Source: Acidobacteriota bacterium
Lineage (GTDB): Bacteria > Acidobacteriota > Terriglobia > Acidiferrales > UBA7541
Assembly (NCBI GenBank): GCA_003225295.1
Contig: QHYZ01000031.1
Span: forward strand, 1 to 37,131
Length of the DNA stretch: 37,131 bases
Direction of reading: 5' to 3'
Part shown: positions 10,585 through 19,391 of the stretch, piece after piece
Position numbering within the stretch: the stretch's first letter is position 1
Layout: each line of letters begins with the position of its first letter
Position numbers and translations under genes: made by a program
The notes under the pieces: model-generated
What the model saw: only the letters and a program-made list of their open reading frames with translations
What the model was told of the DNA's origin: nothing
Databases searched by the model: none

Positions 10585-10809
10585 GAACTATCGCAGGTTC
10601 CCATAGATCGCCAAGCAATTCAAGGCATGGTCAAGGCACGAGCCCACGGGCAACTAGGTCAGTTTCCCGTTAGCCGTGTGTGCCCAAGCGCCGGCGAATT
10701 GAGAAACGTCGAGACGATTATGGAAGGTAGTTTATCAAGGACGAGATTTTTCTTGGTGATCTCGTGCCAGCCAAGGGTGCTTCTATAGCGCGACGCCGTT
10801 ACGGGTGAC

Positions 10810-10840
10810 AGAAAACCAACGAGCTAGTCGTTGGTTTTCT
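10810..10840 (-). terminator. Strong perfect hairpin behind the ADOP permease gene
   Basis: A perfect 13-bp inverted repeat (AGAAAACCAACGA and its complement) closes on a 5-nt loop. The distal arm reads GGTTTTCT on either strand, supplying a short U-run. It lies about 130 nt past the permease stop, in the otherwise empty 10585-10971 gap, so a rho-independent terminator for the padR-ADOP unit is the best reading. No gene was found in that gap. Confidence 0.6.
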
Positions 10841-10971
10841 GGGGAGTGCCGCTGTCAGAGACTTGGCGAGGGCCAACCCGCGATTGTGGTCGGATGGAAA
10901 CACTACACGACCTTCGGCGAGTTAGGATTTGTAGCTCCGTACCCGCATTTAGGAGGTTGTAATTAGTGTTT

Positions 10972-13632
10972 CTATTCTGTTCGGAGAGCCTCCATCGGAT
11001 CGAGCCGCGAAGCGCGCCATGCGGGAATAAGGCACGCGGTACCAGCGACCGACAGCAATATTGTAATGACCAACAAAAATACAGTCGGATCGAGCGGGCG
11101 TATGCCATACAACATGGAGCGAATCAGATGCGCCTCCCCAACGCTGGCAGCCAGGCCGAACCCGAGTCCGAAAAAAGCGGGGCGGAGGCCGTCCAGGAGC
11201 ACGAGCCTGAGCACTCTTTCTCGCTGTGCGCCAAGCGCGATGCGGATGCCAATTTCCGCAGTGCGCTGGGCAACCATGTAGGAAAGAACTCCGAACAAAC
11301 CGACGGCGGCTAGCGCCAGAGATAACACTGCGAATGCGAACAACAGCGTCGCCTCAAAACTGGTATCCAGAGTGGATTTTCCAATGATCTGGTCCATAGT
11401 CAGGATGTCGGAGACAGGCAACTCTGGGTCCAGCTGCTGGGCTGCTTGCTGGATGGGCAAGGCTAGCATGGTCACGTCCCGGGGCGAGCGGACAGCGAGC
11501 GTTGCCTCGTTTGGTACACTGCCGTAAAGGGATGTGTAAAGGGGAAAGTACATCATTGGCTGGGCGGGTTTGGCGATGTGGAAGCGCGTATCACCAACCA
11601 CGCCGACAATTTTGAAAGACCTGCGGCCTATCGCGAGCAGATGTTTCCCAATTGGATCCTCGCCAAAGAGGTATTGTCTTGCAAATGTTTCGCTGACAAT
11701 CACTTGCTTGTCGTTGTCCGGACGCCGGTCTCCATCGAATGTTTGCCCGCGCAGCAAGGGAATCCCAAGGGCAGCGAAATACCCGGGATCTGCCCAGCGC
11801 ACGATGGCATGCTGACTCTGCCCCAGCTGCAGCGGAGGGTGCTCCGCGATCCAGAAACCACTGTCTCCACCGTAGCCCTGTCCTGGAACCGCTCTGACAA
11901 GTCCAGCAGCCTGGACTCCGGGCAGAGCGCGCACGCGCTGGAGCAGCGCTTCAAAAAAAATTACGCGTTGCGCGGCCTGAGCATATTGCGCTTCGGGCAG
12001 ACCGAAACGCATGGTGAGGACATTCTCTGTGAGACAGCCGAGATCGGACGTGCGCAACCGCTGATAACTCTTCAGCAGCAAACCCGCGCCGATGAGCAGG
12101 ACCGCGGTAAACCCCACTTCCAGAGATAGCAGCCACTTGCGCAGGCCGACTCGGGCGGGCCCCGCGCCGTGCGAGCGCGACGATTCCTGGAGCGAGGAAA
12201 GAATCTTGTCACCCGTGGCGGCGGAGACCGAAGAAATCAGTCCTGCGAAAGCCGCACTGAAGAAAATAAGACCCATAGTAAAGGCCACGACGACCCCGTC
12301 GATGTGGATGGCTTCGACGCGGCTTATGTCCTGCCGTGTACGTACAAGCCATTGAATTACGGTCTGCGCCAAGAGGAGGCCAGCCGCCCCGCCAGCGACG
12401 GACAGAACCAAGCTTTCCGTCAGATGCTCACCAAGCAGACGCCGGCGACTGCCGCCCAGTGCCGCGCGAATGGCGAGCTCTCTTCGCCGAGCGGCGGCGC
12501 GCGCCACCAGAAGGTTGGCAACGTTCAAGCACGCAATCAAGAGAACGCAACCTGTTGCGGCCAGCAACACGTACAGCGGCGTCTCGATATCTCCAACCAT
12601 ATCCTCCAGTAGTGGGCGCGTGTTCGCGGCTTTGCTGACGAACGGATTATCGAGGTGCTGATCGTGAAGTCGCTTGACGATTAGCGAAAGCTCCGTCCGT
12701 CCCTGCGAAGCGCTGACTCCGGGTTTCAAACGTCCGATTGCCAGATAGTCGTGGCTATCCAGAGCTTGCATGTCTTGCGTGGACTCTTCGTGGTAAATCG
12801 GGGTCCACAGTTGCACGCTCTGTTCTGGATAGGCAAACCAGGTTGGCATGATACCGATGACCTTGTAGGTCTTCGCGTTAAGACGTATTGTCTGCCTCAG
12901 AATAGAGGGGTCGCCTCCGAAGCGTCTCTTCCATAATCCCCAGCTCAAAACAACGGTGGCATTCGCGGACGGCCTATCGTCTGCGGCGTTGAAAGCTCGT
13001 CCGAGCGCTGGTTCAACACCCAGGGTTGGGAACAAAACCCACGAGCACGCGGCCGCGCGCACTTTTTCTGGAAGTTGCCCGCTCGCTCCGGATAGGTTGT
13101 ACTCCTCCGAACTTGAAACGATCGCCAAATCAGAAAAGCCATGGCTTTGGTCTTTCCAGGCGGCAAATATCCCGCCTGCAACCATGTTGAACGGGAACGC
13201 GTCGTCGGAGCTGTGTTCATACAACCGTATTAGTCGCTCCGGTTCCCTGAACGGCAGCGGCTTCAACAGCACCGATCGCACCACCGTGAACAGCGCAACA
13301 TTTCCGCCGATACCGATGGCGATGACGAGGATCGAGATGCAGGCAAAGCCCGGCGTTCTAGCCAGCGTGCGAACGCCGATTCGCATATTTTGCAGAACCA
13401 TTTCAACCCCGTTCCAACTCCACGTTTCGCGCGTCTGCTCGCGCAGCAGCGTGGGATTACCAAAGGCCCGTCGAGCTGCATAGCGAGCTTCGTCGGGGCT
13501 CATTCCGGCAGCGATCTTTTCGGCAATCTGCTGCTCGAGGTGAAAGTTGAGCTCGGCATCGAGACGCTGCACTTCCCGTCTGCGGTGGAAAAGCATTTCC
13601 AGCCTCATGCGGATCTTTTCCAGCCAGCGCAT
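10972..13632 (-). CDS. ADOP-type ABC transporter permease (MacB/FtsX-like)
   Basis: An 886-residue orphan permease of the acidobacterial duplicated-permease type, in the inner membrane. Residues 1-~75 are the ADOP N-terminal helical region (FHRRREVQRLDAELNFHLEQ, then GMSPDEARYAARRAFGN). A first membrane helix at ~90-120 leads into a MacB-like periplasmic domain. Three helices of the first FtsX unit come next (LLIACLNVANLLVARAAARR, REL(A)IRAALG), then a second periplasmic domain and a second FtsX unit (GVLSYMVAQRTAEIGIRIAL). It ends with the family signature DPMEALRTE. There is no ATPase gene beside it, as usual for this group; the substrate is unknown. padR lies 18 nt upstream, and AAGGAGAGGG precedes the ATG, so the two form an operon probably repressed by PadR. 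Confidence 0.9.
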   Translation of the reverse strand: MRWLEKIRMRLEMLFHRRREVQRLDAELNFHLEQQIAEKIAAGMSPDEARYAARRAFGNPTLLREQTRETWSWNGVEMVLQNMRIGVRTLARTPGFACISILVIAIGIGGNVALFTVVRSVLLKPLPFREPERLIRLYEHSSDDAFPFNMVAGGIFAAWKDQSHGFSDLAIVSSSEEYNLSGASGQLPEKVRAAACSWVLFPTLGVEPALGRAFNAADDRPSANATVVLSWGLWKRRFGGDPSILRQTIRLNAKTYKVIGIMPTWFAYPEQSVQLWTPIYHEESTQDMQALDSHDYLAIGRLKPGVSASQGRTELSLIVKRLHDQHLDNPFVSKAANTRPLLEDMVGDIETPLYVLLAATGCVLLIACLNVANLLVARAAARRRELAIRAALGGSRRRLLGEHLTESLVLSVAGGAAGLLLAQTVIQWLVRTRQDISRVEAIHIDGVVVAFTMGLIFFSAAFAGLISSVSAATGDKILSSLQESSRSHGAGPARVGLRKWLLSLEVGFTAVLLIGAGLLLKSYQRLRTSDLGCLTENVLTMRFGLPEAQYAQAAQRVIFFEALLQRVRALPGVQAAGLVRAVPGQGYGGDSGFWIAEHPPLQLGQSQHAIVRWADPGYFAALGIPLLRGQTFDGDRRPDNDKQVIVSETFARQYLFGEDPIGKHLLAIGRRSFKIVGVVGDTRFHIAKPAQPMMYFPLYTSLYGSVPNEATLAVRSPRDVTMLALPIQQAAQQLDPELPVSDILTMDQIIGKSTLDTSFEATLLFAFAVLSLALAAVGLFGVLSYMVAQRTAEIGIRIALGAQRERVLRLVLLDGLRPAFFGLGFGLAASVGEAHLIRSMLYGIRPLDPTVFLLVITILLSVAGTACLIPAWRASRLDPMEALRTE

Positions 13633-13650
13633 GACCCTCTCCTTTTCCGT

Positions 13651-13980
13651 CTAGGCCTTCTGAATGACCAGATTGATCGCTCCGGAGAGCCGGTTCCAGT
13701 TTGTGGTTTCCTGTTCCAACTGCTCACGGCCGGCCGCCGTCAGCGAGTAGAACTTCGCCTGCCGTCCCGTATCACTCTCCTCCCATTTCCCGCGTATCCA
13801 TCCCTGCTGCTCTAATCGGTGTAGCGCCGGATACAATGATCCCTGCTGCACCTGAAGAACCTCGCCTGAGACTTGCTGGATGCGTTTAGCAATGGCCCAC
13901 CCGTGCTTTGCTTCGAGCGAGACGGTTTTGAGAATCAAAAGGTCCAGAGTTCCCTGGACGAGGTCGCTTGGTTTCCCCAT
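13651..13980 (-). CDS. PadR-family transcriptional regulator
   Basis: A 109-residue PadR winged-helix protein of the short, acidobacterial ADOP-associated type. QGTLDLLILKTVSLEAKHGW is the start of the helix-turn-helix; VQQGSLYPALHRLEQQGWI holds the recognition helix, and GRQAKFYSLTAAGREQLE forms the wing and dimer helix. It is the first gene of a two-gene operon with the permease. A perfect inverted repeat lies just upstream of its own start, so it very likely represses itself and the permease. The start codon lies only 8 nt from the -10 element, so the mRNA is probably leaderless. Confidence 0.93.
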   Translation of the reverse strand: MGKPSDLVQGTLDLLILKTVSLEAKHGWAIAKRIQQVSGEVLQVQQGSLYPALHRLEQQGWIRGKWEESDTGRQAKFYSLTAAGREQLEQETTNWNRLSGAINLVIQKA

Positions 13981-13985
13981 ACTAT

Positions 13986-14017
13986 GACTATCTACATCTA
14001 GTATTGTAGATAGTCAA
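13986..14017 (-). promoter_or_regulatory. padR promoter with embedded PadR operator
   Basis: On the reverse strand TTGACT (14012-14017) and TAGATA (13989-13994) are spaced by 17 nt, a near-ideal sigma-70 promoter. The same bases hold a perfect inverted repeat: GACTATCTAC (13986-13995) and GTAGATAGTC (14006-14015) around 10 nt. The operator thus covers the -10 and most of the -35, so a bound dimer would block RNA polymerase. Transcription should begin within a base or two of the ATG at 13980. Confidence 0.8.
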
Positions 14018-14133
14018 GGGGTCGCACTGTTTCCGCCGTTCTTTCTCATCTAGGGACACCAAAGGACCACGACCCACGATAAGCGCGTTCGTGTGGACCG
14101 AACCGAACAACTCCTGGATGGTTAGAAATAACC

Positions 14134-14152
14134 GGTCCAAACTGTTTGGACC
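14134..14152. repeat. 19-bp perfect palindrome, possible operator
   Basis: GGTCCAAAC, one central T, GTTTGGACC. It stands in the gap between padR and the glycosyltransferase gene, about 115 nt beyond the padR promoter. The one-base centre makes a hairpin unlikely, so a dimeric regulator site fits better. The rest of the 14018-14257 stretch shows nothing recognisable. Confidence 0.5.
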
Positions 14153-14320
14153 CCGATTCGCGCATAAGCGCCCCAAGATCAATCTGTGCATGCGCTCCCA
14201 AACAGCATGCCAAAAGCGAGTTAAGCGCGCGCGGGCATCATAATTGACGGCCGGTGATGTCGCGGATTCCGCGACTATCGTGGCCTGAAGGCGTTCCAGG
14301 CGGCCGGGCTATCCGGGGAA

Positions 14321-15379
14321 GTGGTTGTTGCGGACAACGGTTCGACAGACGGTTCAATTCAAATTGCGGAACAGCACGGGGCGCGTGTGATTCGCGTCGC
14401 GGAGCGCGGCTACGGGGCGGCACTGCGCGCTGGCATCGCCGGCGCGCGCGGGCTTTTCATCATCATGGGGGATGCGGACGACAGCTACGACTTCACCGAT
14501 GTCCCGCGATTCGTGGAAAAACTGCACGAAGGCAATGACATCGTAATGGGCAACCGCTTCCGGGGCGAAATCAAACCCGGCGCCATGCCGCCGCTGCACA
14601 AGTACTTCGGCAATCCCGGCCTCACCGCTTTGCTTAATACTTTATTTCATGCGCACATCGGAGACGGTTACTGCGGAATGCGAGGATTCACACGCAGTCT
14701 CTACGACCGCCTGGATCTGCGAAGTTCGGGGATGGAGTTTGCGCTCGAGATGGTCATCAAGTCCGCTCAAATTGGGGCGCGCATCGCAGAGATTCCCATC
14801 ACTTTGTGGCCCGACAAGCGCGGGCGCGCGCCACATCTGCGCAGCTTTCGCGACGGCTGGCGCAGCCTGCGGTTCATGCTGCTCTACGCGCCGAACTGGC
14901 TTTTCCTGCTGCCCGGCACCGCGCTCGTGCTGACTGGACTCTTTCTCGTGTTTTGGCTGCTGCCGGGGCCTCGCCAGATTTCTCCCCACGTGGGGCTGGA
15001 CATTCACACGATGATTTTCGGCGTTATCTTCACGCTTCTGGGGGCGCAGATTCTCTCGATCGGAGCATTCGCAAAGGTATTCAGCTATGCCGAGCGCTTT
15101 GACCGGCGCTCGGTATCTTTGCGACGTGTTCTGAAGCGCGTCACTCTGGAGACGGGTCTGCTCGTGGGTTGCAGTCTGTTCCTCATGGGATTTGCAGGGT
15201 GCGTGTGGGTCACCTGGCAATGGGCCGCGAGCGACTTCGGCGAGCTCCATGAGGTCCGCCAAGTTCTCTTCTGGTCGATGTGGCTTTTCCTCGGTTTGCA
15301 GGTGATTTTCGCCGCCTTCTTTCTCAGCATGCTGGGCATCAGTCGCGAGACGTTTATCGGCGACTACGACTTGAAATAG
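14321..15379 (+). CDS. Family 2 glycosyltransferase, apparently missing its N-terminus
   Basis: A membrane-anchored GT-A (GT2) transferase, probably moving a sugar from a nucleotide donor to a lipid or glycan acceptor. The frame starts straight at strand two, VVVADNGSTDGS, then has GYGAALRAGI, the DXD-type metal site GDADDSYDF and GNRFRG. Three to four C-terminal helices follow (NWLFLLPGTALVLTGLFLVF, IFGVIFTLLGAQILSIGAFA, and two more). The usual first 35-45 residues, including the donor-binding SVVIPALNEE-type strand, are absent. The frame is open back to 14258 with LKAFQAAGLSGE, which does look like family sequence, but a stop at 14255 ends it and no start is present. A neighbouring frame (DSATIVA) may hold a little more. 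Either a 5' truncation or a frameshift has damaged the gene; a GTG at 14321 is only the first possible start. Confidence 0.75.
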   Translation: MVVADNGSTDGSIQIAEQHGARVIRVAERGYGAALRAGIAGARGLFIIMGDADDSYDFTDVPRFVEKLHEGNDIVMGNRFRGEIKPGAMPPLHKYFGNPGLTALLNTLFHAHIGDGYCGMRGFTRSLYDRLDLRSSGMEFALEMVIKSAQIGARIAEIPITLWPDKRGRAPHLRSFRDGWRSLRFMLLYAPNWLFLLPGTALVLTGLFLVFWLLPGPRQISPHVGLDIHTMIFGVIFTLLGAQILSIGAFAKVFSYAERFDRRSVSLRRVLKRVTLETGLLVGCSLFLMGFAGCVWVTWQWAASDFGELHEVRQVLFWSMWLFLGLQVIFAAFFLSMLGISRETFIGDYDLK

Positions 15380-15481
15380 TTTCGAATGCCGGGGCTGAGG
15401 CTGTCGGTGAGCGGGGACTCGTGAAACGTGTAAATTCCCGATCCGCTAGGACTCGTTTGGAGCGTGTAGCAGCTAGCGTTC

Positions 15482-17188
15482 CTACTTCTGAGCAGGTGGC
15501 GCTTGTTGTTGATAGGGAATTAATTTTGTATTGTCGGTATCGGGCTCGACGAGCCAGATCTGGCGATCCCTGAAATATGCGAAGAGCCTGGCATTTTGGA
15601 CGGGGTCGAGTTCGCGGGCCCAGAGAACCTTGGCGGTATCGATTTCTGCTCCGTTGTAAACCCACTCGTCATGCAGATTGTGATTCTCCTGGTAGCGCAC
15701 CATGATCAGATGTTTGCCTGGAGTCTGAAAAAGTCTTTTCCCAATGGCCGCGCGACTGGGATCTCCCTGGCAGGCCCATTCCAATTGGTCGCAGACGTGG
15801 CGGGCGATAGAGAAACCAACATCGGTTGCGAGAAGGTAAAAGATGGCCCAGGAAAGCGCGAGGCCGAGTGGGCGTCCACCGAGACGAATCGTGCGCAGGT
15901 GGCGCATCGCCTGGACGAGCAGCAGAAAAATCACACCCGTCAGCGACGCGGCATAGTGAGGCATCGACCAGATCAATACTAGGAATCCGGCTGTCCCCAG
16001 CAGAAAGATCAGAATCGGCAAGCGCATCTTGCGGTCGAAAAAAGCGAATGGCAATCCTGGCAAAAGCAGCAGAGCACCCCACCAGAAGTAGGTGCTGCCG
16101 CTGCGAGTCAGTTTTTCAACGGAAACCCTTTGAACGTCCGGCCACGTGTTTTGATAGTCTTCGCGTTCCCAGCCGTTGTAGAAATCTTCGAACTGCTCAT
16201 TGTTATATTGAATCGGCTCTTTGGGATGGTCCCACAGAAATAGACCTGTCGTTCGATAGGTTCGTGTGTTCAAGACATGTGGGAAGAGAAGGGCACTTCC
16301 GGTTAAGCGCCAGTTGTAATAGCCGATGAATCCGGTAGTTAATGTCAGGACAACGGCCAAGGGAGTGAGAACTCTGACGATGCGCGTACGCAGCGCCACG
16401 GGAGATTTTGTTTTTCCTGCCAGCCAGCAGAGGAACCAGCCGGCCACGGGGATACAGAAGAGCAGTCCCTCATAGGGCCGGGTGTTCGCCAGGATGGCGA
16501 TTCCCAGGCCGAGCAGCAGAGCATCGGGCGTACCTGCGCGGCGCACAATTCGCGGCATCGCGCCCAGCACCAGCGCGCCACCGGTGGCTGCGACGGCTCC
16601 GCCCCAGTAGCTGTTGATCCAATAGCTGGCGATTCCGAATTTCAGCGCGACCAGCACCGCGCCGAGAAAGGCCCACCTCGCTGGAAGCCAGGCTTGCAAC
16701 ATCCGGAGAATCGCAGCGCACATTGCGGCAACGCTCAGAAGCACGCCTATCCATGGATGTGCCAGCAATTCGCCGAGCGCTAGGACCGCTCCCTGCCCCG
16801 GCGGATACTTGGAGGAATAGGTCGGGAACCAATTCACGTGAAATGTTTCGAAGCTCATCCACATGGGATGAGGCGGATTGGCCAGACGGCCGTGGGCCAG
16901 CGTGTCACCGAGTAACAGGTAGCTGTACTCGTCATGAATTCCGGGGACTGGCACCGGCAGCTGAGGCAGAACCGCAAGCCGGACGCCGATGACCATGAAG
17001 AAAAGGGCAATGACCGCCAGCGTCTTGCGTTCGGCCAGGCGGGAGAGAAGGGACTCAACGGCGTGGAACACTCTGGACGTCAGGCGCGGCAGGAATATGG
17101 CAAGCAGCGAGAAATAAAAGCCGATGCGCAGGATCACGCGCAGCGCGTGCGGCAGATGCATTAACAGCTTGCCAATGAATTCACTCAT
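15482..17188 (-). CDS. GT-C-fold (PMT/ArnT-like) membrane glycosyltransferase-like protein
   Basis: An integral membrane protein of about 568 residues from the ATG at 17188, with roughly ten helices and a soluble C-terminal tail. The first lumenal loop has PGIHDEYSYLLLGDTLAHGR, where the Asp-Glu pair matches the acidic catalytic site of GT-C enzymes such as ArnT and PMT. ANPPHPMWMSFETFH and TYSSKYPPGQG follow, as in a large group of uncharacterised acidobacterial proteins. It probably transfers a sugar from a polyprenyl-phosphate carrier. An upstream GTG at 17311 would add 41 residues that look non-coding (no hydrophobic signal, odd composition), so the ATG is preferred. It converges with the damaged GT2 gene. 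Confidence 0.75.
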   Translation of the reverse strand: MSEFIGKLLMHLPHALRVILRIGFYFSLLAIFLPRLTSRVFHAVESLLSRLAERKTLAVIALFFMVIGVRLAVLPQLPVPVPGIHDEYSYLLLGDTLAHGRLANPPHPMWMSFETFHVNWFPTYSSKYPPGQGAVLALGELLAHPWIGVLLSVAAMCAAILRMLQAWLPARWAFLGAVLVALKFGIASYWINSYWGGAVAATGGALVLGAMPRIVRRAGTPDALLLGLGIAILANTRPYEGLLFCIPVAGWFLCWLAGKTKSPVALRTRIVRVLTPLAVVLTLTTGFIGYYNWRLTGSALLFPHVLNTRTYRTTGLFLWDHPKEPIQYNNEQFEDFYNGWEREDYQNTWPDVQRVSVEKLTRSGSTYFWWGALLLLPGLPFAFFDRKMRLPILIFLLGTAGFLVLIWSMPHYAASLTGVIFLLLVQAMRHLRTIRLGGRPLGLALSWAIFYLLATDVGFSIARHVCDQLEWACQGDPSRAAIGKRLFQTPGKHLIMVRYQENHNLHDEWVYNGAEIDTAKVLWARELDPVQNARLFAYFRDRQIWLVEPDTDNTKLIPYQQQAPPAQK

Positions 17189-17335
17189 CGGAGGTGCGGG
17201 TTTATCTGCATGGGATTGTGGCACGTATGGGGCTGAGTAGAAAGATAGATACGTCGTGCCCCATTGAAGTTTAGTCCGTCCTCCACTACTGTGTGCGAAG
17301 AACGCAGGCACCGTTTCTCCAGCGAGGCGGAAAAA

Positions 17336-17968
17336 TGTTCCTGTATTGCCTGGCAGCGGCCCTTGTTTTCGGTTATCCGCAGCAAAAGAGTTCTAAGACC
17401 GAGGAGCAGGTTGCGGCGCAGCGGCAAGCCAGTCTCCTCTTGGAGCGCCATCGCCAAGTGGCTATTCGAATGAACGAGGTGGCCGCGCACATCGGCTCTG
17501 AGGCTGACGCACGTTCGTGGATGAAGTCGCGGATTATGTTCGCTGACAGCCTGCCTTCTTCGCGGCCACGCCGAATATGAGGCCGTTTCCGATCCGTTGC
17601 GACAAATTCCCGAACAAAGGATTGCCGATGTGTGGAACAAATACGTTCGAGAAATCGGTGCTTCGGAAGAGCCCATTGTCCGTCCACGCGCTCGGAATCG
17701 TTCCCTGCGACCACATCACCTGCCCGGACGCAATATTCGACAATCTACGAGGCGCACGCGCACGATTGCGGAAGTGCTTTGTCGTTTCCGATGCCATCAA
17801 GAGGAGTCTGGAAAATACGAAGGCCAACCAGAAAACCAGTGCCTGGCTGGAAGCGCGGACAGACGCCAATCCGCTTTGATCCGGTACGTGCGCGCGCACG
17901 CTGTGGAGCACTTCAAGCAACTCGTGGAGCCGCTCTTTGAGGAACTGTTTCCCGCGAGCCATCAGGCC
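17336..17968 (+). pseudogene. Decayed secreted-protein gene (multiple frameshifts and a stop)
   Basis: A readable protein is split across two or three frames. It starts MFLYCLAAALVFGYPQQ (signal-peptide-like), then AAQRQASLLLERHRQVAIRM and NEVAAHIGSEADARS. It slips to VADYVR, a TGA, then QPAFFAATPN. Another slip gives YEAVSDPLRQIPEQRIADVW and NKYVREIGASEEPIV. The other frame resumes with AIFDNLRGARARLRKCFVV, SDAIKRSLENTKANQ and LEARTDANPL. The last piece, IRYVRAHAVEHFKQLVEPLF and EELFPA, is back in the former frame. In sum about 200 residues, probably shorter than the intact form because the middle block is missing. The function of the intact relatives is unknown. Confidence 0.7.
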
Positions 17969-18134
17969 AGTTCAAAAAGTCCGTAGAAGCGCTCGCCGAT
18001 ACACGCCAAGGGTTTGCCTCGATCAGGCCGTAGGGTTCAGGGAATGGTCTGAGATATAGAGAATGCTTCCGACAGCCCAAACAGGTCAAAGGCTGTTGAG
18101 GACACGTTCGGCAAAGTAGATGTTCTGCTGGAAG

Positions 18135-19391
18135 TTATCTTTCGATTTCGATCTCTGTGGTGCGTTTGGGATCCTGTGCTGCCGGCTTGCTCGCAGCAGG
18201 CCGGTTAACACGCTCGTCGAGGAAATCCGCCATTTCCAGCCGCAAATTTCCAGCGTTGGTTGAATAGGTTATTCCGGTTTCGAAATCGACGATCCCTGCG
18301 CGAATGAGCTTGTCAATCTCGCCATCGAAGTACTGCATGCCCTCGGTGGTGCCGTCGCGCATGGCATCAAGAAGTGACTTGCCTTCGCTTTCACCTTTTT
18401 CAACGTACTCCCGCGTACGCATCGTTGACCTGAGAATTTCCACGGCGGCGATGCGTCCCTGGCCGTCCATCTTGGGAAGGAGGCGCTGGGAAAGGATGTA
18501 ACGGAAGGCTTTGGAGAGCCGGGTGCGAATGGCTTGCTGGTCGGCCATTGGGAAAACTCCAACGATGCGCTCCACGGTCTTCGATGCATCAACGGTATGC
18601 AACGTGGACATGACCAGGTGCCCCGTTTCCGAAGCTTCCAGGGCGATCTCAATCGTTTCCCGGTCACGCATTTCGCCTACGAGAATGACTTTCGGCGCTT
18701 GCCGGAGCGCCGCTCGCAAAGCCAACGCAAAGGTAGGTGTGTCTGAGTGCAGTTCGCGCTGATGGATCGTCGCTTTCTTGTGGCGATGAAGAAACTCGAT
18801 GGGGTCTTCAATGGTCAGGATGTGGTAGGCCTTCTCCTCGTTCATCTTGTCGAGGATGGCCGCGAGAGTTGAAGATTTCCCGGAACCGGTTGGACCCGTC
18901 ACAAGCACGATGCCGTTGCGCAGATCCACAATTTCCTTCAATGCCTCCGGCAGATTCAGCTCCTCGAATCCGGGGATTTTGTCGGGAACGACACGCATTA
19001 CAATGGCGCAACTTCCGCGCTGCTTGAAGATATTTACGCGGAAACGCGCCACGCCCGCGATTCCGTAGGAAAGATCTGCGGAGCCGTCCTCCTCGAGCTT
19101 GCGGATAGGCGTCTCGTTTTTTCCCATGATGTCGTTGGCAATCGAGCGCGTATCCTGCGAACTCAGACACTCCAGCCCTTTATACTTGAGCTGCGTGAGC
19201 TGGCCGCTGACCTCGATTTGAGGCGCGCGGCCCGGCGAGAAGATTAAGTCACTGACGTGCGAGCTGGCCTTCAACATGGCAGTGACGAGCTGGGCGGTGT
19301 GAATCGTCCTTTGCGCTGCAGGTGCCGATGTTGGCGCCGGCACTTGCGCGGGCGCTGTCTGCGACGGCATGGTTTGTGTAGGTATCCCCAT
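18135..19391 (-). CDS. pilT: PilT-family type IV pilus retraction ATPase
   Basis: A cytoplasmic hexameric motor ATPase of the secretion-ATPase superfamily that drives pilus retraction or a related twitching function. From the ATG at 19391 the protein has 418 residues. A Pro/Ala/Thr-rich N-terminal tail (about 30 residues, unusual for PilT) leads into HTAQLVTAMLKASSHVSDLI and the PilT N-domain. Walker A GPTGSGKS lies at ~166-173, an Asp box around TIEDPIEFLH, Walker B in VILVGEMRDRET and the His box in STLHTVDASKTVERI. A frame opening at a GTG (19448) would add 19 residues; the ATG is better placed behind AGG. No other pilus genes are in the window. The extended C-terminal tail suggests a PilT/PilU-like paralogue rather than the pilus-cluster copy. 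Confidence 0.88.
   Translation of the reverse strand: MGIPTQTMPSQTAPAQVPAPTSAPAAQRTIHTAQLVTAMLKASSHVSDLIFSPGRAPQIEVSGQLTQLKYKGLECLSSQDTRSIANDIMGKNETPIRKLEEDGSADLSYGIAGVARFRVNIFKQRGSCAIVMRVVPDKIPGFEELNLPEALKEIVDLRNGIVLVTGPTGSGKSSTLAAILDKMNEEKAYHILTIEDPIEFLHRHKKATIHQRELHSDTPTFALALRAALRQAPKVILVGEMRDRETIEIALEASETGHLVMSTLHTVDASKTVERIVGVFPMADQQAIRTRLSKAFRYILSQRLLPKMDGQGRIAAVEILRSTMRTREYVEKGESEGKSLLDAMRDGTTEGMQYFDGEIDKLIRAGIVDFETGITYSTNAGNLRLEMADFLDERVNRPAASKPAAQDPKRTTEIEIER

Follow-up and report, generated by a model that had tools for sequence, protein, structure and literature searches.

A predicted leaderless padR message and a promoter-overlapping inverted repeat ahead of an acidobacterial ADOP permease gene

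Overview

In a soil bacterium of the Acidobacteriota, the message for a PadR-family repressor appears, from the sequence, to begin with the start codon itself, and the operator that the repressor presumably binds overlies the promoter. Within the 37,131-nucleotide stretch of DNA that we analysed (the window), padR and the ADOP permease gene behind it probably constitute an autoregulated operon that combines a predicted leaderless padR mRNA, a promoter-overlapping PadR operator, and a permease gene led by a Shine-Dalgarno (SD) site. RNA polymerase would use TTGACT and a -10 element within -14 to -7 of the padR start codon, and the mRNA would begin at the A of the ATG or 1–2 nt before it, so that padR would be translated leaderless. 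A PadR dimer would bind the palindrome that covers the promoter, exclude polymerase, and repress both padR and the permease gene; we infer that an inducer also takes part. The permease gene follows after 18 nt, presumably as part of one transcript with padR; it would be translated from a strong SD site, and each transcript would yield little repressor and more permease.

Genes, promoter and translation signals

The features of the operon and its upstream region are as follows.

10972 to 13632, minus strand: ADOP duplicated permease, TIGR03434, 886 aa (842.6 bits against a cut-off of 622.3)
13633 to 13650, minus strand: 18-nt gap between padR and the permease gene, containing the permease SD site (duplex energy -8.7)
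13651 to 13980, minus strand: padR, TIGR03433 padR_acidobact, 109 aa (151.4 bits against a cut-off of 101.8; PF03551, 79.7 bits against 27)
13978 to 13980, minus strand: padR start codon ATG, without SD; the RNA 5' end is predicted here or within about 2 nt
13987 to 13992, minus strand: -10 candidate B, GATAGT, at -12 to -7 (spacer 19; 6 nt to the ATG; 4/6 match to TATAAT)
13989 to 13994, minus strand: -10 candidate A, TAGATA (spacer 17; 8 nt to the ATG; only 3/6 match to TATAAT)
14012 to 14017, minus strand: -35 hexamer TTGACT, recognized from the sequence
13985 to 14016, unstranded: perfect 12-8-12 inverted repeat, the proposed PadR operator, with conserved mirror core G..ATCTACA / TGTAGAT..C

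Read on the minus strand, the order of elements before padR is CC-TTGACT-ATCTACAATACTAGATG-TAGATA-GTCATAGT-ATG. The promoter described in the first-pass annotation, TTGACT-N17-TAGATA followed 8 nt later by the padR ATG, was present in every part (14017-14012, 13994-13989, and 13980, minus strand). Its assignment of TAGATA as the -10 element is less secure: the hexamer exists, but GATAGT/GATAAT at -12 to -7, with a spacer of about 19, may be the true -10. Neither candidate is an ideal fit, since TAGATA matches the consensus at 3/6 positions and GATAGT requires a 19-nt spacer, and both predict that the padR RNA starts on the ATG or no more than about 2 nt from it. The TTGACT/TAGATA promoter was absent from the output of a generic sigma-70 scan of positions 12500-18500 because that scan demands a T at position 6 of the -10 element, which TAGATA lacks.

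The strong ribosome site claimed for the permease gene was real, with an anti-SD duplex energy of -8.7 compared with -0.5 for padR. The window PadR has many sequence relatives in the PDB, the best being 4esb (E 1.3e-11). Two further inverted repeats flank the operon. A perfect 14-5-14 repeat at 10809-10841, some 130 nt beyond the ADOP gene, is perhaps the operon terminator, and a 9-1-9 repeat at 14134-14152, upstream of the padR promoter, is terminator-like on the minus strand.

The inverted repeat and its distribution

The arms of the repeat, TGACTATCTACA and TGTAGATAGTCA, occupy 13985-13996 and 14005-14016. The perfect 10-10-10 repeat originally reported is nested within this 12-8-12 structure, which is the maximal perfect form, and its reach over both promoter boxes holds for all of TAGATA and for five of the six bases of TTGACT. 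The window had two perfect repeats with arms ≥12 and loops ≤12, where 15 dinucleotide-shuffled 37-kb sequences had a mean of 0.2 each. Stronger evidence for the padR promoter and repeat than these tests on the window sequence comes from conservation among PadR relatives, which ruled out a chance palindrome. The palindrome overlaps the promoter in the window and in its relatives and is predicted to be bound by PadR. By eye, the canonical PadR box ATGT-N8..10-ACAT is not at the site, where the half-sites are instead CTACA and TGTAG, that is, CTACA-N8-TGTAG.

The operator pattern, at ≤3 mismatches, matched a single site in the bacterium's own genome, before a padR, and the site of paralog L006 in the same genome, with 4 mismatches to the pattern, also lies before a padR. 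Sites that are few and each before a padR suit a local autoregulator; with one site at this threshold, the operator of a wide regulon found no support. Across genomes, the pattern at ≤3 mismatches matched 11/151, all of the window's own genus (1/52 genera), with 0 matches for the reversed control. A stricter pattern that includes the start codon matched 7/396 genomes of the phylum (3/211 genera; control 0), namely the own genome and six of one family (f11) in the same class. Both patterns track the window closely and miss many of the conserved copies described below, so these counts are lower bounds. Searched for by pattern, the exact site is nonetheless rare: the few genomes that have it belong either to the own genus or to a single other family, and this rarity counts against the reading that we prefer.

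Conservation among PadR relatives

A scan of genome contigs yielded 75 loci from records titled Acidobacteria or bearing names of acidobacterial taxa. We aligned 71 rows on the start codon, comprising the window, paralog L006, and 69 acidobacterial loci, and left out L138 and L145 (no N terminus) and L141-L144 (alignment starts only at residue 5 or 6). A TTGACN-N15..18-TAGA-type hexamer stood 8 nt before the start in 56/71 rows, and a looser pattern added L106 for a total of 57, of which 56 are distinct (class A); the 69 loci were selected by similarity to the window PadR and are not independent, class A includes paralogs and near relatives, and its pattern, of which TTGAC is a part, was written after seeing the sequences. 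These 57 copies retained TTGAC, both half-sites, and the 8 nt to the ATG, close relatives nearly letter for letter. Cultured bacteria that share the layout include Edaphobacter lichenicola (L114) and Acidicapsa dinghuensis (L104). The spacer from TTGACN to TAGA was 17 in 37 copies and 18 in 15. The fourteen rows outside class A were L090, L107, L121, L122, L125, L126, L128-L130, L134-L137, and L140.

Conservation extended slightly beyond the -35 hexamer, to positions -5 (A, 91%), -2 (C, 89%), and -1 (C, 91%) relative to TTGAC, ended about 5 nt upstream of it, and farther out amounted to ≤0.20 bit per column. While TTGAC was in 56/56 distinct class A copies, as the class definition dictates, the mirror of its C was T in 38/56 and the mirror of its first T was A in 35/56. 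In the right arm, the A at -9 was retained in 96% of class A, and its mirror base varied among T, G, and A. Selection on a palindrome only would let both arms drift alike; as TTGAC stays fixed opposite mirror bases that change, we conclude that the promoter as well as the operator is selected.

The hexamer at -12 to -7 was GATAAT in 26, GATAGT in 16, GATAAC in 11, and something else in 3 of the 56 distinct copies, and matched TATAAT at 4 or 5 positions in 54/56. The hexamer at -14 to -9, the TAGATA position, matched at 3 positions in 54/56. Every distinct copy (56/56) started with ATG. The operator constraint by itself could fix part of the spacing between promoter and ATG. An SD (energy ≤-4) was absent from 54/57 class A padR genes, and the three with SD-like energy all had GAGGTG in the operator spacer. 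The next ORF had an SD in 44/46 class A copies in which its start was found, a count that leaves aside the other 11 copies and rests on a choice of start that leaned towards SD. The fusion of promoter and operator proposed in the first-pass annotation is thus supported by a layout retained in many acidobacterial relatives of the window PadR.

Natural variants

Several rows outside class A depart from the layout in informative ways. In L130 the start lies 7 nt farther out, is GTG, and is preceded by a GAGAGGAAG stretch. In L090 and L107 the promoter and operator persist, GGTAT included. ATC stands in place of the old ATG, and the new ATG is preceded by 38-39 nt of GC-rich sequence, hairpin-like by eye and with no obvious SD, so that the implied leader is about 38 nt long. 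In L136 the right half-site is gone, and the sequence still reads TTGACT-N17-CAGAAT-N6-ATG. In six orthologs whose records belong to Bryobacteraceae, gp3, and gp6 (L121, L122, L125, L126, L128, and L129), the half-sites are about 5 bp farther apart, and TATTGT stands at a spacer of 17-18, 13-14 nt from the ATG, an arrangement that predicts a leader of about 5-7 nt. As L090, L107, and the six long-spacer orthologs imply leaders, strict leaderlessness is not universal.

Apparently leaderless and SD-led paralogs in one genome

The 8.1-Mb genome from which the window comes had 74 TIGR03433 matches, 51 of them over the cut-off, and at least 67 ADOP permeases. We left out seven weak or partial matches and merged two C259 pieces, which gave 66 entries covering 67 matches; 61 had a callable start, chosen by rule and in some cases (e.g., C77:11923) probably wrong. 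Among padR-type genes with a TTGACA-like box (5/6 or better) at -42 to -34, 0/11 had an SD, compared with 21/28 of those with such a box beyond -46 (Fisher p 1.9e-5). The remainder of the 61 comprised 3 genes with boxes elsewhere and 19 without such a box. Two other genomes, with 24 of 30 loci over the family cut-off, showed a weaker trend in the same direction, with an SD in 2/7 short-distance and 9/11 long-distance genes and 6 loci unclassified. Taken together, the fixed spacing, the lack of an SD, the exclusive use of ATG as start, and the difference from paralogs with leaders agree with the prediction of a leaderless or near-leaderless padR mRNA, which is in this sense supported.

Automatic palindrome scoring gave z >4 in 13/61 paralogs and missed some dyads that are visible by eye (e.g., C69:165474), so we base no conclusion on it. 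In 400 kb of the same genome, TANNNT occurred at -15 to -12 in 9/110 ATG genes compared with about one per offset elsewhere, a signal too weak to lean on given a simple gene finder with poor start calls (110 ATG genes of 232). The genome also contained divergent padR pairs that share an intergenic region at C58:5424-6217, C287:59094-60346, C367:3443-4259, and C259:92852-93666.

The start codon as a possible part of the operator

A second group of paralogs has the -35 hexamer in one arm of its palindrome (TTGACATTCTA) and the start ATG in the other (TAGAATGTCTA). The pattern TTGACATTCTA-N14..28-TAGAATGTCTA occurred at 25 sites in 20/89 genomes of the family (control 0), and the right-arm ATG opened a frame matching the window PadR at 19/25 sites, with the match for L247 covering only 22 residues. 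Of the six other frames, three break within 20 codons (L232, L236, and L249), two run for 280 aa (L233 and L250), and one for 502 aa (L245), the long ones without PadR similarity. The frame from the operator ATG is 502 aa in both L245 and L247, of which L247 begins like PadR and L245 does not. At 13/25 sites a TATAAT-like hexamer stood at a spacer of 17 and 8 nt from the ATG, the same geometry as TAGATA in the window. The distance from hexamer to ATG was 8 nt at 15/25, 6-10 nt at 21/25, and 11-13 nt at 4/25. PadR paralogs with 52-57% identity to the window's, including some in its own genome, carry a different palindrome.

In the class A consensus, the left flank ATACC mirrors GGTAT, which takes in the AT of the start codon, and the outer part of the repeat may consequently reach the start codon, farther than the operator as it was drawn initially. 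The flank is exactly ATACC in 26/56 class A copies. In the window it is ACCCC, and of the five outer pairs just two are matched by eye. This poor match weakens the claim for the outer arms, as does the CC that stands before TTGAC in the second group too and has no mirror partner there (by eye). We therefore offer only tentatively, as a reading of the sequences open to considerable doubt, that the start codon is part of the operator in this PadR lineage, within a palindrome (ATACC..GGTAT) that spans roughly -42 to +2 in the window group and within TTGACATTCTA..TAGAATGTCTA in the second. One DNA word would then serve repressor, RNA polymerase, and ribosome, and paralogs of one genome would switch between leaderless and SD-led forms.

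Alternative explanations

The fused promoter and operator could be real and transcription could still start 3-10 nt upstream of the ATG, leaving a very short leader without SD. With TAGATA as the -10 and a start 7 nt downstream, the leader would be about 2 nt; the TATTGT placed 13-14 nt before the ATG in the six long-spacer orthologs and the 11-13 nt that follow the -10 at 4/25 second-group sites point the same way. In 26/56 distinct class A copies, however, GATAAT exactly at -12 to -7 puts +1 on the A of the ATG, and L136 has its -10 hexamer 6 nt from the ATG despite the lost right half-site. We consider such a leader unlikely as the general explanation of the site.

It is still less probable, to a degree that makes it a distant contender, that the palindrome is the operator of a regulator other than the adjacent PadR. 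The site does differ from the canonical PadR motif, and PadR as its binder is a prediction, but the site stands directly before padR in 57/71 copies of the lineage, PadR paralogs at 52-57% identity carry a different palindrome, and the own genome has only one site with ≤3 mismatches. Alternatively, the repeat might act as an RNA hairpin, an attenuator or translation block in a longer 5' leader transcribed from a promoter farther upstream. The window copy could form a perfect 12-bp stem a few nucleotides before the ATG, and L090 and L107 have a leader, hairpin-like by eye, downstream of the operator. The outer pairs are nevertheless often broken among the 56 distinct copies, with C-A at pair 5 in 38/56 and pair 6 paired in 25/56. 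Compensatory changes of both bases are nearly absent (a single G-C, at pair 6), TTGAC is invariant, and the upstream sequence is unconserved. The 12500-18500 scan found no minus-strand promoter-like site, although it missed the padR promoter too. Many copies thus have pairs lost through a change in one arm that the other arm does not make good, which disfavours a hairpin or attenuator; we regard it as very improbable. An autoregulated operon with a leaderless padR message remains the reading that we prefer.

Significance and comparison with known systems

One genome with 51 padR_acidobact genes and at least 67 ADOP permeases, in which some padR genes are apparently leaderless and others SD-led, amounts to a large natural series in which the idea that leaderless translation determines the dose of repressor in an autoregulated operon could be tested. 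The repeat also supplies a candidate operator for the ADOP permease family. In the literature searched we found nothing on the function of this family, though the phrase 'duplicated orphan permease' does occur in one paper. Among the literature matches listed, from a collection with few subscription journals, no title or summary described a leaderless PadR gene or a padR-ADOP operator.

PadR proteins are known to act on their own promoters: Bacillus cereus PadR1 (bcPadR1) binds its own promoter region (PMC3506622). LmrR and bcPadR1 are small PadR proteins like that of the window, but their box is ATGT/ACAT with a spacer of about 8-10, unlike CTACA-N8-TGTAG, and the word 'leader' is absent from that text (PMC3506622). 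Predicted leaderless (TA-led) genes were reported in 3/3 Acidobacteria genomes at a mean of 13.3% of genes (9.7 to 19.4) (Zheng 2011, PMC3160421). In them TANNNT precedes the start codon by about 12 bp, as it does in padR; the excerpted part of that work presents genome statistics, without operator overlap (PMC3160421). Lambda cI and tetR of Tn1721 are named as leaderless (PMC3017554). Both therefore have the kind of repressor mRNA that is predicted for padR. Their protein families and operator layouts differ from those of padR.

The closest design is acuR-acuI-dddL of Rhodobacter sphaeroides, which likewise has a promoter-proximal repressor gene and whose AcuR mRNA, with its 5' end mapped to the AUG by 5' RACE, is leaderless, as the window padR is predicted to be (PMC3017554). 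There too a palindrome, TAATAGAC-n6-GTCTATTA, overlaps the promoter, the repressor gene lacks an SD, and the downstream genes have one; fused translationally, acuR yielded about 7.5% of what acuI did, and a similar layout is noted in other taxa (PMC3017554). The AcuR-type combination of a -10 element about 6-9 nt from the start and no SD was found in the window and in 57/71 copies and was lacking in the six long-spacer orthologs, L090, and L107; the window also has the SD of the downstream gene. AcuR differs in belonging to the TetR family and in controlling a catabolic operon (PMC3017554). Unlike AcuR's palindrome, that of the window spans -35 to -10 and may, judging by the consensus, take in the start codon. 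Because the AcuR design is proven and leaderless genes were already predicted to be common in Acidobacteria, the padR case is a new example and not a new mechanism. What makes it interesting is that it involves a PadR protein, that relatives conserve it, and that the start codon may lie in the putative operator, and the last of these is the most novel.
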